Source: Frateuria sp. Soil773 (GTDB lineage Bacteria; Pseudomonadota; Gammaproteobacteria; Xanthomonadales; Rhodanobacteraceae). From it: a DNA stretch of 64,000 nucleotides. Shown here piece by piece: positions 12,840-18,302 of the stretch. The notes under the pieces were generated by a model. The model had not been told where the DNA came from. It saw nothing but the letters and a program-made list of their open reading frames with translations, and did not search any database. The stretch covers positions 81,028 to 145,027 of the forward strand of contig NZ_LMSL01000002.1 in the NCBI RefSeq assembly GCF_001428405.1. Reading direction: 5' to 3'. How positions within the stretch are numbered: position 1 is the stretch's first letter; the number at the start of each line of letters is the position of its first letter. The translations under genes and the position numbers were made by a program.

Positions 12840-13598
12840 TCACCCGCATTTGCTATAGCCGCAGTTGAGGCACGTCTGACACCCGTCCATCAACACCAGC
12901 GCCTGGGTATTGCACTTGGCGCACAGGGTGGCGCCCGGCGGGAAGCTGGAGGATTCGGGGGTGGAGGCTGCCGCGGTTGAATGGGCTCCCGCGGAAGCCG
13001 CGGTCACGTCAGTGCCTTTTTTTGCACCGGCCTGCTCGTAGGCGGCGCGCTTCTCGGCGATCAGGCGGCGGGTGGACTCGTCCATCTCCGGGTCGTGGAT
13101 CAGCCCGATGTTCTTCATGTGCTGCTCGATCACCGCGCCGATCTCGGCGACGATGCTGGGCATGTAGATGCCGCCGGCCTTGAAGTAGCCGCCGCGCGGG
13201 TCGAACACGGCCTTCAGCTCCTCGACGATGAAGGTGACGTCGCCGCCCTTGCGGAACACGGCCGAGAGGATACGGGTGAGCGCCACGATCCACTGGAAGT
13301 GGTCCATGTTCTTCGAGTTGATGAAGATCTCGAAGGGGCGGCGCTGTTCGTACTTGGTGCCGGCGTTGAGCACGATGTCGTTGATGGTGACGTACAGCGC
13401 GTGCTCGAACAGCGGCGACTTGATCTTGAAGGTGGAGCCGACGAGCTGCTCGGGGCGCTCGACGCTCTCGTGCATCTGGATCACTTCGGCCATCGGCGGC
13501 TCTTTGGGCGCGATGGGTGCGGCGGCGGCCGGCGCGGCCTTGTCCTCGGGCTTGACGACGTTGTAGCCCTTGATCTTCTTTTCGATCTTGATCGCCAT
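12840..13598 (-). CDS. nrdJb: Class II ribonucleotide reductase, C-terminal subunit NrdJb
   Basis: Second half of a split adenosylcobalamin-dependent ribonucleotide reductase, which supplies deoxynucleotides with or without oxygen. The 252-residue product has a lysine-rich start (MAIKIEKKIKGYNVVKPEDK), an Ala/Pro linker, the TSCPD-type domain (about residues 50-175) and a C-terminal zinc-ribbon-like cysteine cluster (CAKCN, DGCQTCLNCGYSKCG). The last cysteines probably reduce the active site of NrdJa. It is not directly next to nrdJa: a histone-like gene lies between them in the same direction. The same split is known in Pseudomonas aeruginosa. Confidence 0.88.
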   Translation of the reverse strand: MAIKIEKKIKGYNVVKPEDKAAPAAAAPIAPKEPPMAEVIQMHESVERPEQLVGSTFKIKSPLFEHALYVTINDIVLNAGTKYEQRRPFEIFINSKNMDHFQWIVALTRILSAVFRKGGDVTFIVEELKAVFDPRGGYFKAGGIYMPSIVAEIGAVIEQHMKNIGLIHDPEMDESTRRLIAEKRAAYEQAGAKKGTDVTAASAGAHSTAAASTPESSSFPPGATLCAKCNTQALVLMDGCQTCLNCGYSKCG

Positions 13599-13800: not shown

Positions 13801-14349
13801 TTACTTCTTGCGGGCGGCCTTCTTGGCGGCGGGCTTCTTCGCCGCCTTGACGCTCGCCTTCTTGCTGGCAGTGGACCTCTTGGCCGCCTTGGGAGCGGCC
13901 TTCTTCACGGCAGCCTTCTTGGCTGTCTTCTTCGGAGCGGCCTTCTTGGCCGTCTTCTTGCTGCTGACCTTCTTTGCGACCTTGGCGGCGGTCTTCTTCA
14001 CCGCCTTCTTGGCGGAGGAAGCCTTCTTCGCCACCTTGCCGGCAACCTTCTTGGCGGCCTTCTTCACCGCCTTCTTGGCGGCGGCCGCCTTCTTCACCGC
14101 CTTCTTCGGCGCGGCCTTCTTGGCAGCGGCCTTCTTCACGGCCTTCTTGGCCGTCTTCTTGGCGGCGGCCTTCTTCGGCGCAGCCTTCTTCGCGGCGGCC
14201 TTCTTGGGAGCGGCCTTCTTCGCGGCCGGCTTCTTCCTGGCCGGTGCCTTCTTCGGCGCGGCCGGCGTCACCGCCGGTGCGGCCGCCGGCGCTTCGGGCG
14301 CGGCCGGCTTGGAGCTGTCTTTCACTTCGACTTCGGTATCGATGGACAT
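13801..14349 (-). CDS. Histone H1-like, lysine/alanine-rich DNA-binding protein
   Basis: The 182-residue product has a short acidic and proline-rich start (MSIDTEVEVKDSSKPAAPEA) and then about 145 residues of degenerate KKAAPKK/AKKAVKK repeats resembling the C-terminal tail of eukaryotic H1 and bacterial proteins such as Bordetella BpH1, chlamydial Hc and AlgP. Such tails bind DNA without sequence preference and may compact the nucleoid or affect transcription. Slippage within the repeat probably makes length variable between strains. It lies between the two halves of the split ribonucleotide reductase, with its own terminator. Confidence 0.9.
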   Translation of the reverse strand: MSIDTEVEVKDSSKPAAPEAPAAAPAVTPAAPKKAPARKKPAAKKAAPKKAAAKKAAPKKAAAKKTAKKAVKKAAAKKAAPKKAVKKAAAAKKAVKKAAKKVAGKVAKKASSAKKAVKKTAAKVAKKVSSKKTAKKAAPKKTAKKAAVKKAAPKAAKRSTASKKASVKAAKKPAAKKAARKK

Positions 14350-14407: not shown

Positions 14408-16555
14408 TCAGAACTTGCCGTAGTAGCCTTCCTTCAGGGCATCGAAGAGATTGGCGGCGGTGTGCATTTCGCCGTCGTACTCCACCTCTTCATTGCCCTT
14501 CAGTTCGATAACGCTACCGTCTTCCAGTTCGAAGCGGTAGAGGGTGCTTTCAAGGTCGGCTTCCTTCACCAGGACGCCCTGGAAGGCGGCGGGGTTGAAC
14601 CGGAAGGTGGTGCACCCCTTGAGGCCCTGCTTGTAGGCGTAGAAGTAGATGTCCTTGAAGTCTTCGTAGGGGTAGTCGGTGGGCACGTTGGCGGTCTTGG
14701 AGATCGACGAATCGATCCACAACTGCGAGGCGGCCTGGATGTCCACGTGCTCCTTCGGGCTGATGTCGTCGGCGGCCACGAAGTACTCCGGCAGCTTGGC
14801 GGCCGGGTCGTCGGAGAACGGCAGCGCGTTGGCGTTGATGAGGGCGCGGTAGGCGAGCAGCTCGTAGCTGTAGACCTCGACCTTTTCCTTGGACTTCTTG
14901 CCCTCGCGGATCACGTTGCGCGAGTAGTGGTGGGCGAAGCTCGGCTCGATGCCGTTGGAGGCGTTGTTGGCCAGCGACAGCGAGATGGTGCCGGTGGGCG
15001 CGATCGAGCTGTGGTGGGTGAAGCGCGCGCCGGTCTCGGCGAGCTGCTCGACCAGGTTGGGCGCCACGGTGGCGATGCGCTGCATGTAGCGGCTGTACCT
15101 GGCATGCAGCACGCGGCCGGGGATGGCATCGCCGACCTTGTAGCCGTCCTTCGCCATTTCCGGGCGCTTGCGCAGCATGTCGCCGGTGACCGTGAACTCC
15201 TTGGCGAGGATCGGCGCCGGGCCCTTCTCCCTGGCGAGGTCGAGCGCGACCTCCCAGCCGGCCACCGCCATCTCGCGGGAGACGTCCTCGGTGAAGGCCA
15301 CCGCCTGCTCGGTGCCGTAGCGCATCTTGAGCATGGTGAGGGTGGAGCCCAGGCCCAGGAAGCCCATGCCGTGGCGGCGCTTGCCCATGATCTCGTCGCG
15401 CTGCTGCTGCAGCGGCAGGCCGTTGATCTCCACCACGTTGTCGAGCATGCGGGTGAACACCTTGACCACCTCGCGGTACTCGTCCCAGTCGAAGCGGGCC
15501 TTGGGGCCGAACGGGTCGCGCACGAAGGTGGTGAGGTTGACCGAGCCGAGCAGGCACGAGCCGTACGGCGGCAGCGGCTGCTCGCCGCAGGGGTTGGTGG
15601 CGCGGATGTGCTCGCACCACCAGTTGTTGTTCATCTCGTTGACCTTGTCGATCAGGATGAAGCCGGGCTCCGCGTAGTCGTACGTGGAGACCATGATCAT
15701 GTCCCACAGGTGCCGCGCGCGGATGTGGCCGTAGACCTTGCAGGCGACCAGGCCGTCCTCGCGCTCGACGTAGTTCTCGTGGGTGGGCCACTCGCGCCAG
15801 ACCACCTTGGCGGGGTCGTCCAGGTCCAGCTCACCCTGCTCCTTCACGTGGATCGGGAACACCAGCGGCCAGTCCTGGTCGTGCTCCACCGCCTGCATGA
15901 AGCCGTCGGTGATCAGCAGCGACAGGTTGAACTGGCGCAACCGGCCGTCCTCGCGCTTGGCGCGGATGAATTCCTTGGCGTCCGGGTGGCTGATGTCGAA
16001 GGTGCCCATCTGCGCGCCGCGGCGGCCGCCGGCGGACGACACGGTGAAGCACATCTTGTCGTAGATGTCCATGAACGACAGCGGGCCGCTGGTGTAGGCG
16101 CCGGCGCCGGACACGTACGCGCCGCGCGGGCGCAGCGTGGAGAATTCGTAGCCGATGCCGCAGCCGGCCTTCAGGGTGAGGCCGGCCTCGTGCACCTTCT
16201 CCAGGATGTCGTCCATGGAGTCGCGGATGGTGCCCGAGACGGTGCAGTTGATCGTGCTGGTGGCGGGCTTGTGCTCCAGCGCGCCGGCATTGGAGGTGAT
16301 GCGGCCGGCCGGGATCGCGCCGCGGCGCAGCGCCCACAGGAAGCGCTCGTTCCAGTGCTCGCGCAGCTCCGGCGTGGCCTCCACGTCCGACAGCGCGCGC
16401 GCGACGCGCTGGTAGGTGCCGTCGACGCTGGCGTCGACCGGCTCGCCCTGCTTGTTCTTCAGGCGGTACTTCTTGTCCCAGATGTCATACGACGCGGGTT
16501 GCAGCGGAATGTCCACGGCGTCTCGGCTCACGGCTGGTGCACGCACGGTGCTCAT
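14408..16555 (-). CDS. nrdJa: Class II ribonucleotide reductase, catalytic subunit NrdJa
   Basis: Catalytic half of the B12-dependent ribonucleotide reductase, 715 residues. Visible motifs are the ten-strand barrel cysteine (TINCTVSGT), the glycine-rich GCGIGYEFSTLRPRG, the radical-site NPCGEQPLPPYGSC with its catalytic Cys and Glu, and SSIAPTGTISL in the phosphate-binding segment. The C-terminal cysteine tail is absent because it is encoded by nrdJb. ATG 16555 (MSTVRAPAV) was preferred to an upstream ATG at 16615 because it follows AGGAAACCG. Two tandem NrdR-box-like sites lie 167-213 bases upstream. No B12 riboswitch signature was found. Confidence 0.93.
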   Translation of the reverse strand: MSTVRAPAVSRDAVDIPLQPASYDIWDKKYRLKNKQGEPVDASVDGTYQRVARALSDVEATPELREHWNERFLWALRRGAIPAGRITSNAGALEHKPATSTINCTVSGTIRDSMDDILEKVHEAGLTLKAGCGIGYEFSTLRPRGAYVSGAGAYTSGPLSFMDIYDKMCFTVSSAGGRRGAQMGTFDISHPDAKEFIRAKREDGRLRQFNLSLLITDGFMQAVEHDQDWPLVFPIHVKEQGELDLDDPAKVVWREWPTHENYVEREDGLVACKVYGHIRARHLWDMIMVSTYDYAEPGFILIDKVNEMNNNWWCEHIRATNPCGEQPLPPYGSCLLGSVNLTTFVRDPFGPKARFDWDEYREVVKVFTRMLDNVVEINGLPLQQQRDEIMGKRRHGMGFLGLGSTLTMLKMRYGTEQAVAFTEDVSREMAVAGWEVALDLAREKGPAPILAKEFTVTGDMLRKRPEMAKDGYKVGDAIPGRVLHARYSRYMQRIATVAPNLVEQLAETGARFTHHSSIAPTGTISLSLANNASNGIEPSFAHHYSRNVIREGKKSKEKVEVYSYELLAYRALINANALPFSDDPAAKLPEYFVAADDISPKEHVDIQAASQLWIDSSISKTANVPTDYPYEDFKDIYFYAYKQGLKGCTTFRFNPAAFQGVLVKEADLESTLYRFELEDGSVIELKGNEEVEYDGEMHTAANLFDALKEGYYGKF

Positions 16556-16901
16556 CGGTTTCCTGACCTCCGGCCTCACGGCCCCGATTTGTTGTTCGAT
16601 GAAACCGCCCTTCAACCTCGATCATCGACTGCACCGCGCGGGAGCGTGGCTCCCTTTCCAGGCAATTCGTCCGAGTGATTGCCCGACTGCGTCATCCCTC
16701 CCCCAGGGATGTCCTGCCGATACCAACACTTGGGTGGAAGCCCGACGGGCACACACAAGATGTTGTGGTTGCGAACGGATAGGCAAGGTACCGCCCGGGC
16801 CTGTCGATGTAAAGTCTTTCCGGCGCGAAAATCGGCCCGGAACTGCGGCGGCGCCGCACGAGTCGAACGAGCGCCCTTTCCGCCCTTCCTCGGAGGATTC
16901 C
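16556..16901. other. Divergent control region, nrdJa / Deg protease
   Basis: No gene. It contains the tandem NrdR-like boxes (16722-16768) and a small hairpin ATCCCT/AGGGAT (16694-16711) that would lie in the nrdJa leader. The Deg-protease ribosome site (CGGAGG) ends the region. Confidence 0.6.
16722..16768 (-). promoter_or_regulatory. Tandem NrdR-box-like sites upstream of nrdJa
   Basis: The proximal-to-consensus box ACACAAGATGTTGTGG (16753-16768) agrees closely with the NrdR consensus ACACwATATwTTGTGT. A weaker partner ACCAACACTTGGGTGG (16722-16737) starts exactly 31 bases away, the three-helical-turn spacing typical of NrdR box pairs. NrdR is the zinc-finger/ATP-cone repressor of ribonucleotide reductase genes. 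The nrdR gene is not in this window. Confidence 0.65.
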
Positions 16902-18302
16902 ATGCCACAGCTACCCCACCTTTTCAGCCTGCGGCGGCCGCGCGCGCGCTGGCTCGCCGCGGCGCTGGCCGTGCTGACGGTCGGCGCCATGCCGGCTCCG
17001 GGCCTCGCGGCGCTGCCGCCGGCGGTCGGCGCGCAACCGCTGCCGTCGCTGGCGCCGATGCTGGAAAAGGTGACCCCGGCCGTGGTGAACATCTCCACCA
17101 AGACGCGCGTGCGGGTACGCGACCCCTACTTCGACGACCCGATGTTCCGCCAGTTCTTCGGCCTGCCCGGCACCCCGCGCGAGCGCGTCGAGCAGAGCCT
17201 GGGCTCGGGCGTGATCGTGGACGCCGCCAAGGGCTACGTGCTGACCAACAACCACGTGGTCGGCGGCGCCGACGACATCAGCGTGACCCTGCAGGACGGC
17301 CGCACCCTGAAGGGCAAGCTGATCGGCACCGACCCGGACACCGACGTGGCGGTGGTGCAGATCCCCGCCACCGGCCTCAAGGCGCTGCCGCTGGCCGATT
17401 CGTCGACGCTGCGCGTGGGCGATTTCGTGGTGGCGGTAGGCGACCCGTTCGGGCTGGGGCAGACGGTGACCTCGGGCATCGTCTCGGCACTGGGCCGCTC
17501 CGGCCTGGGCGGCTCGGGCTACCAGAACTTCATCCAGACCGACGCCTCGATCAACCCCGGCAATTCCGGCGGCGCGCTGGTGAACCTGCGCGGCGAGCTG
17601 GTCGGCATCAACACGATGATCTTCTCGCCGTCGGGCGGCAACGTCGGCATCGGCTTCGCCATCCCCACCCGGATCACCAGCGAGGTGATGCAGCAGTTGA
17701 TCGCCCACGGCAAGGTGCGCCGCGGCAGCCTCGGCGTGCAGGCGCAGGACATCACCCCGCGGATCGCCCGGATCCTCGGCGTGAAAGCCGACAGCGGCGT
17801 GGTGGTGACCCAGGTCGCCACCGGCTCGGCCGCCGAGGCCGCCGGCCTGCAGCCGGGCGACGTGATCGGCGCGATCGACGGCAAGCGGCTGCGCAGCGCC
17901 GACGACCTGCGCAACGCCGAGGGCCTGCTGCCGCTGGGCAGCACGCTCAAGCTCGACGTGCTGCGCGACGGCAAGACCCGCAGCGTGAGCGCCACGCTGA
18001 CCCCGGAGAAACTCGCCACGCTCGATGGCGGCCGGCTGGACCCGCGCCTGGCGGGCGTGAGCTTCAGCGACCTGCCGCAGCAGCTTCGCGGCCAGGGCAT
18101 CGCCGGCGTCGCGGTGAGCGCGGTGGGCAGCCGCAGCCGCGCCGCGCTGGCCGGGCTGCAGGCGAACGACGTGGTGATCGGGGTGGGCAACCGCCGCGTC
18201 ACCAGCCTGCGCGAGCTGCAGGCGCTGGCCGGCGCGCGGCCGCGGCAACTGGTGCTGGTGGTCGCCGACGACGACGGCGCGCACTACGTGGTCGTGCAGT
18301 AA
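16902..18302 (+). CDS. Periplasmic Deg-type serine protease with two PDZ domains
   Basis: A 466-residue HtrA/Deg protease for periplasmic protein quality control. ATG 16902 follows CGGAGG. After a signal peptide (cleaved near residue 38, GLAALPP) comes the trypsin-like domain with His118 (TNNHVV), Asp148 (DTDVAV) and Ser222 (GNSGG). Two PDZ domains follow: about 275-360 (GSLGVQAQDI to LDVLRDG) and about 385-465. The short Q-linker and length near 460 resemble DegQ or DegS-with-two-PDZ proteins more than DegP, but I cannot separate them firmly. It is transcribed divergently from nrdJa, with no operon partner. Confidence 0.93.
   Translation: MPQLPHLFSLRRPRARWLAAALAVLTVGAMPAPGLAALPPAVGAQPLPSLAPMLEKVTPAVVNISTKTRVRVRDPYFDDPMFRQFFGLPGTPRERVEQSLGSGVIVDAAKGYVLTNNHVVGGADDISVTLQDGRTLKGKLIGTDPDTDVAVVQIPATGLKALPLADSSTLRVGDFVVAVGDPFGLGQTVTSGIVSALGRSGLGGSGYQNFIQTDASINPGNSGGALVNLRGELVGINTMIFSPSGGNVGIGFAIPTRITSEVMQQLIAHGKVRRGSLGVQAQDITPRIARILGVKADSGVVVTQVATGSAAEAAGLQPGDVIGAIDGKRLRSADDLRNAEGLLPLGSTLKLDVLRDGKTRSVSATLTPEKLATLDGGRLDPRLAGVSFSDLPQQLRGQGIAGVAVSAVGSRSRAALAGLQANDVVIGVGNRRVTSLRELQALAGARPRQLVLVVADDDGAHYVVVQ

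Follow-up and report, generated by a model that had tools for sequence, protein, structure and literature searches.

In the 64,000-nucleotide stretch of Frateuria sp. Soil773 DNA that we analysed, hereafter the window (contig NZ_LMSL01000002.1, positions 81,028 to 145,027 of the forward strand), two palindromes in front of nrdJ very probably form an operator for the repressor NrdR. The gene, nrdJ (nrdJa), lies on the minus strand at 14408..16555 and encodes the catalytic part of an adenosylcobalamin-dependent class II ribonucleotide reductase, with 579.9 bits against the NCBIfam NrdJ family model TIGR02504 (curated cut-off 399.95). NrdR control of this class II enzyme, which a first-pass annotation of the window had claimed, is well supported as a prediction from the DNA by the conservation of the boxes in related bacteria, the presence of nrdR in the same genome and a second pair of boxes in front of the class I genes nrdAB.

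Two palindromes in front of nrdJ

The NrdR box is a 16-base pair (bp) palindrome near ACACWATATATWGTGT. Candidate sites were scored with a weighted NrdR consensus of 16 positions and a maximum of 12, for which the weights were set by us. The strong site, box 1, lies at 16753..16768 on the minus strand and reads CCACAACATCTTGTGT on the nrdJ strand, which corresponds to ACACAAGATGTTGTGG on the plus strand. With 10.5 of 12, it is the top scorer and the sole 16-mer of at least 10 in the window, and the good NrdR box that the first-pass annotation had placed at 16753-16768 is thus present exactly there. In the 4.55 megabase (Mb) draft genome, box 1 is the only site with at most one mismatch from ACACAANATNTTGTGT and the one closest to this symmetric pattern.

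The partner, box 2, is a weak site (7.0 of 12) at 16720..16735 on the minus strand (ACCCAAGTGTTGGTAT), 33 bp from box 1, and in an alternative register it occupies 16721-16736, 32 bp from box 1. The pair score was 17.5 at 16720, 16.5 at 16721 and 15.5 at 16722, the last being the 31-bp register, which ranked third of the three and in which one of the two conserved C/G box positions is gone; the other two registers keep both. No pair in the window scores higher than the one at 33 bp, and 17.5 was not reached in any of 2000 dinucleotide-shuffled versions of the intergenic region (largest 16.0). The degenerate partner box of the first-pass annotation is real, its register was wrong, and the exact three-turn spacing of 31 bp claimed for the pair has to be replaced by 32-33 bp. 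The resulting spacer between the boxes, 17 bp or, in the alternative register, 16 bp, lies within the published range of 14-17 bp that binds NrdR in vitro (PMC12051234; statements on papers cited here by PMC number refer to the parts of them that were available).

The evidence that carries the case comes from the relatives. NrdJ was searched for in 61 genomes, of which two (G040 and G054) gave no match and two others (G044 and G057) gave class I matches only. The region upstream of nrdJ in G052 was left out because a contig end cuts it, and since G019 has two copies of the gene, the set comprised 57 loci from 56 genomes, the Frateuria genome included. With thresholds that were chosen after the scores had been seen, a box 1 of at least 9.5 of 12 was present in all 57 upstream regions (0.5% in shuffles), and a partner of at least 6.5 at 31-33 bp from box 1 was present at 50 of them (4.8% in shuffles), so that the conservation in relatives which the first-pass annotation had put up as a check was indeed found. 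In one genome (G038), the upstream of two boxes with equal scores of 9.5 was chosen by hand as box 1, and the site in another (G059) is doubtful because it lies far upstream (-419) with its best partners at 36 and 42 bp. In an alignment of the loci anchored at box 1, at least 1.5 bits were carried by 12 of the 16 box 1 columns and up to 1.4 by those of box 2, and no column between the boxes exceeded 0.4. The box is also kept, apart from the doubtful G059, in the 16 of the 56 genomes in which nrdJ is the sole reductase seen, meaning that there was no class I match beyond a weak one to nrdJ itself.

A second set of named organisms consisted of 80 loci, the best-ranking ones among 581 confirmed matches. 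These were mostly Rhodanobacteraceae and Lysobacteraceae, among them the genera Dyella, Rhodanobacter, Luteibacter, Lysobacter, Pseudoxanthomonas, Stenotrophomonas and others, plus two Pseudomonas. A box 1 of at least 9.5 was found within 500 bp in 78 of these 80 loci; of the remaining two, one carries it at -512 and the other scores 9.0. The two sets share some organisms, and their related sequences are not independent.

The distance between the boxes and the inferred nrdJ promoter is conserved as well. On the minus strand, the inferred -35 element, TTTACA, lies at 16808..16813, and the inferred -10 element, TACCTT, at 16785..16790, with a 17-nucleotide spacer. The -35 element was missed by a strict consensus scan, and the promoter call therefore rests on conservation: the best -35/-10 pair ends 9-17 nucleotides before box 1 in 51 of the 57 loci, compared to 12% in mononucleotide shuffles, and a pair is found 9-17 nucleotides ahead of box 1 in 73 of the 80 named loci (again the best 80 of 581). 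Transcription of nrdJ would then be expected to start near 16778, which would place both boxes in the leader, box 1 at about +11 to +26 and box 2 at about +44 to +59.

NrdR, nrdAB and a cobalamin riboswitch

The regulator itself is encoded in the same genome. The nrdR gene scores 202.5 bits against TIGR00244 (cut-off 124.65), and its product has the zinc ribbon and the DNA-reading residues: R12, D15, R17, RRRR26-29 and R37 of the translation are the DNA contacts named in the Streptomyces structure (PMC9110341). By eye, the gene sits between glyA-like and ribD-like frames and not beside nrdJ. Of the 61 genomes searched, 60 contain nrdR, and it is missing only in G044.

NrdR sites were expected by the first-pass annotation in front of nrdAB too, and a pair was found there, at G000:C2 359926 and 359958 of the Frateuria genome, 32 bp apart. 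These boxes, CCACAATACCTTGGGT and GCCCGATATGTTGTGT, flank and overlap a promoter recognized by eye (TTGACC-N17-TATGTT). In all 30 nrdA loci of the comparison, our own included, the best pair had a spacing of 32 bp (28 loci) or 33 bp (two loci) and a score of at least 16.0, compared to a maximum of 15.0 in a control of 300 shuffles of the 800-bp upstream regions. Among 13 further nrdA upstream regions from 12 genomes, 10 had a pair of at least 17; the three without a pair are a truncated contig (G042), the second nrdA copy in G035, and G044, which has no nrdR.

Between the NrdR pair and nrdA of the Frateuria genome, outside the window, lies a cobalamin riboswitch (RF00174; 107.2 bits against a gathering score of 31.5) at L032 476-688, which is G000:C2 359962-360174. 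The Rfam match starts 12 nucleotides before the end of the nrdA box 2 and ends before the nrdA match. The same element was detected in 29 of the 30 nrdA loci and in eight of the 13 further upstream regions, and all 37 riboswitches begin downstream of where the NrdR pair begins and stop short of the nrdA match, the Rfam match beginning 11-13 nucleotides before the end of box 2 in 35 of them. This overlap with box 2 probably arises because the unpaired flank of the model is laid on promoter DNA.

Of the 38 genomes that have both reductases and sufficient upstream sequence, 37 carry the riboswitch. The two genomes that have nrdA and no nrdJ, G044 and G057 (the latter with two nrdA copies), lack it. 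G057 belongs to the same genus as G048, which has both nrdJ and the riboswitch. Left out of this count were G042, where the upstream region is short, the second nrdA copy of G035, where none was found, and G043, which has a partial class I match. The sole genome with both reductases whose nrdA has no detected riboswitch is G006 (locus L114), which has an NrdR-like pair near the gene. As a separate observation, the riboswitch at nrdA is accompanied in two relatives by a further cobalamin riboswitch in the opposite orientation (L119 3310-3606 and L120 3296-3660).

Alternative explanations and comparison with known systems

Several observations weigh against an NrdR operator in front of nrdJ. The centre of box 2 in the window is not AT, and in seven of the 57 loci no partner reaches the threshold. 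Another place in the genome (L052, among 15 core-pattern sites) obtains a pair score of 16.5, so that the score alone cannot single out real sites. Genome-wide counts did not help either: with at most three mismatches from ACACAANATNTTGTGT there are 15 sites compared to 12 for the reversed control (the 14 besides box 1 include both boxes before nrdA), the literal box 1 16-mer with at most three mismatches gives 12 matches compared to 29, and the core CWANATNTWG gives 15 sites compared to 61. Since these counts do not clearly exceed those of the reversed controls, they were dropped as proof of NrdR boxes, and the weight of the case rests on conservation. The strict consensus scan found no promoter before the boxes. 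Furthermore, G044, where the best nrdA pair scores 14.5 and falls inside the shuffle range, is a single and weak control because it is distant (nrdA 45% identical). Finally, in Pseudomonas aeruginosa under anaerobic conditions, an nrdJa fusion fell in an nrdR mutant and the transcript was unchanged (PMC4409342).

The boxes might serve the divergent htrA gene on the other side of the intergenic region, or both genes as a shared operator. The region is common to both genes, and a divergent htrA is present at 68 of the 80 named loci (best 80 of 581). However, all 12 named loci without a detected divergent htrA, including the two Pseudomonas, keep box 1, although at three of them the upstream DNA spans no more than 420-740 bases. 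Together with the nearly constant distance between the boxes and an nrdJ-strand promoter and the like pair at nrdA, this makes a role at htrA improbable.

Equally improbable is that box 1 functions alone and box 2 is a chance resemblance. The weak score of box 2 would fit this explanation, its chance probability at a fixed place in the window being about 0.009, and so would the loci in which the partner falls below the threshold. Against it stand the 50 loci that do have a partner at 31-33 bp, with the DNA between the boxes near background, the need for two boxes in high-affinity NrdR binding (PMC12051234) and the non-canonical second box that is real at E. coli nrdAB (PMC12176259). As a predicted site, box 2 is thus made convincing by its conservation and not by its own score. 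A palindrome for some other regulator with an incidental likeness to the NrdR box, which could be proposed since NrdR binding here is a prediction, is the least probable explanation of all, as NrdR is consistent with the 16-bp motif, the spacing of the two boxes, their presence at both reductase genes and the lack of an nrdA pair in G044, which has no nrdR.

An NrdR operator for nrdJ is also in line with what has been described for other bacteria. In P. aeruginosa, nrdJa is likewise an NrdR-regulated class II gene; it is repressed by NrdR aerobically and raised in an nrdR mutant, and box 1 is reported to overlap the -10 element (PMC4409342). The nrdJ operator of the window differs in that its box 2 is degenerate and the inferred promoter precedes both of its boxes. 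In Streptomyces coelicolor, NrdR binds nrdRJ (PMC9110341) and a B12 riboswitch acts on the class I operon nrdABS (PMC4991794), so that, as here, NrdR is found on the class I and class II operons and a cobalamin riboswitch on class I; unlike in S. coelicolor, nrdR is apart from nrdJ here, and the lineage is Gammaproteobacteria. NrdR needs two boxes in phase, with spacers of 14-17 or 24-27 bp (PMC12051234), and at E. coli nrdAB a non-canonical second box downstream of the promoter belongs to the tight-binding pair (PMC12176259). The arrangement at nrdJ resembles this one in that the pair extends downstream of the promoter and the centre of the second box is non-canonical, but E. coli nrdAB is a class I operon with a spacer of 15 bp (PMC12176259), compared to 16-17 bp at the class II gene nrdJ.

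NrdR has been counted among the most conserved regulatory interactions of Proteobacteria (PMC5343134); the words nrdJ, nrdAB and Xanthomonadales are absent from the main text of that paper, and the available part of PMC2667541 does not treat an nrdJ operator. In the parts of the literature on NrdR and the B12 riboswitch in Xanthomonadales and Xanthomonas that were available, we found no description of this operator, and a prior prediction in a database such as RegPrecise is quite possible.

How the operator might work can be outlined from this arrangement. When deoxyadenosine triphosphate (dATP) is plentiful, NrdR tetramers loaded with dATP and adenosine triphosphate (ATP) would occupy the two boxes, spaced by roughly three turns of the helix, and keep the class II reductase gene from being transcribed, and when dATP drops, NrdR would be released and nrdJ expressed. 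Since the inferred start is located shortly before the operator, NrdR would interfere with an early step of transcription, such as open complex formation or promoter escape, and would not cover the -35 element. NrdR would also bind at nrdAB, where the boxes lie over the promoter, and as an additional control the cobalamin riboswitch would keep class I silent whenever there is B12 for NrdJ to use. Taken further, and quite tentatively, the two reductases could be under NrdR by different means: the nrdAB promoter would be covered, whereas nrdJ would be bound in its leader and blocked at a later step through one strong box and one that is kept weak, so that class II would respond less sharply to dATP than class I, and the B12 riboswitch would rank the enzymes and be lost once nrdJ had been lost.

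Neighbouring genes and significance

Downstream of nrdJ, on the same strand, an nrdJb-like protein is encoded at 12840..13598. It matches the C-terminal part of full-length B12-dependent reductases (NF006417, positions 585-759, E-value 2.4e-14), below the curated cut-off of this full-length model. Between the two genes, at 13801-14349 on the minus strand, lies a gene for a Lys/Ala-rich protein that looks histone H1-like by eye and gave no NCBIfam match. In six genomes (G010, G014, G017, G022, G035 and G059), NrdJ is interrupted near residues 319-324 by roughly 1.1 kilobases of in-frame sequence, probably an intein at one site. The divergent gene at 16902..18302 on the plus strand encodes a Do/HtrA-family serine protease (TIGR02037) and was judged a neighbour and not a target of the boxes. 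A sigma-E-like promoter for htrA (16840-16867, plus strand) was discarded, because the window has a single loose match to the pattern and the 80 related loci have none.

The possibility of an RNA element within the leader of nrdJ was rejected as well. No Rfam family matched positions 16000-17500 of the window at E-values up to 1, there were no Rfam matches at gathering score in 11 nrdJ loci and in L039, a locus of the Frateuria genome hit by the pattern, and the leaders of 31 nrdJ loci, compared by eye and without a covariation test, were poorly conserved apart from the boxes and the Shine-Dalgarno end. NrdD, the anaerobic class III reductase, gave no match in the Frateuria genome and was discarded as a third NrdR target.

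The operator arrangement is ordinary and expected, the mechanism being already known from other bacteria, with nrdJ of Pseudomonas and Streptomyces as known NrdR targets; its conservation is unusually clean. With strong comparative support, it would mean that in Rhodanobacteraceae and related families one dATP-sensing repressor controls the class II as well as the class I reductase. The predicted logic is layered, with NrdR on both enzymes plus a B12 riboswitch on class I, and the distribution of this riboswitch among genomes with and without nrdJ (37 of 38 versus none of two) constitutes a natural test of the combined logic.
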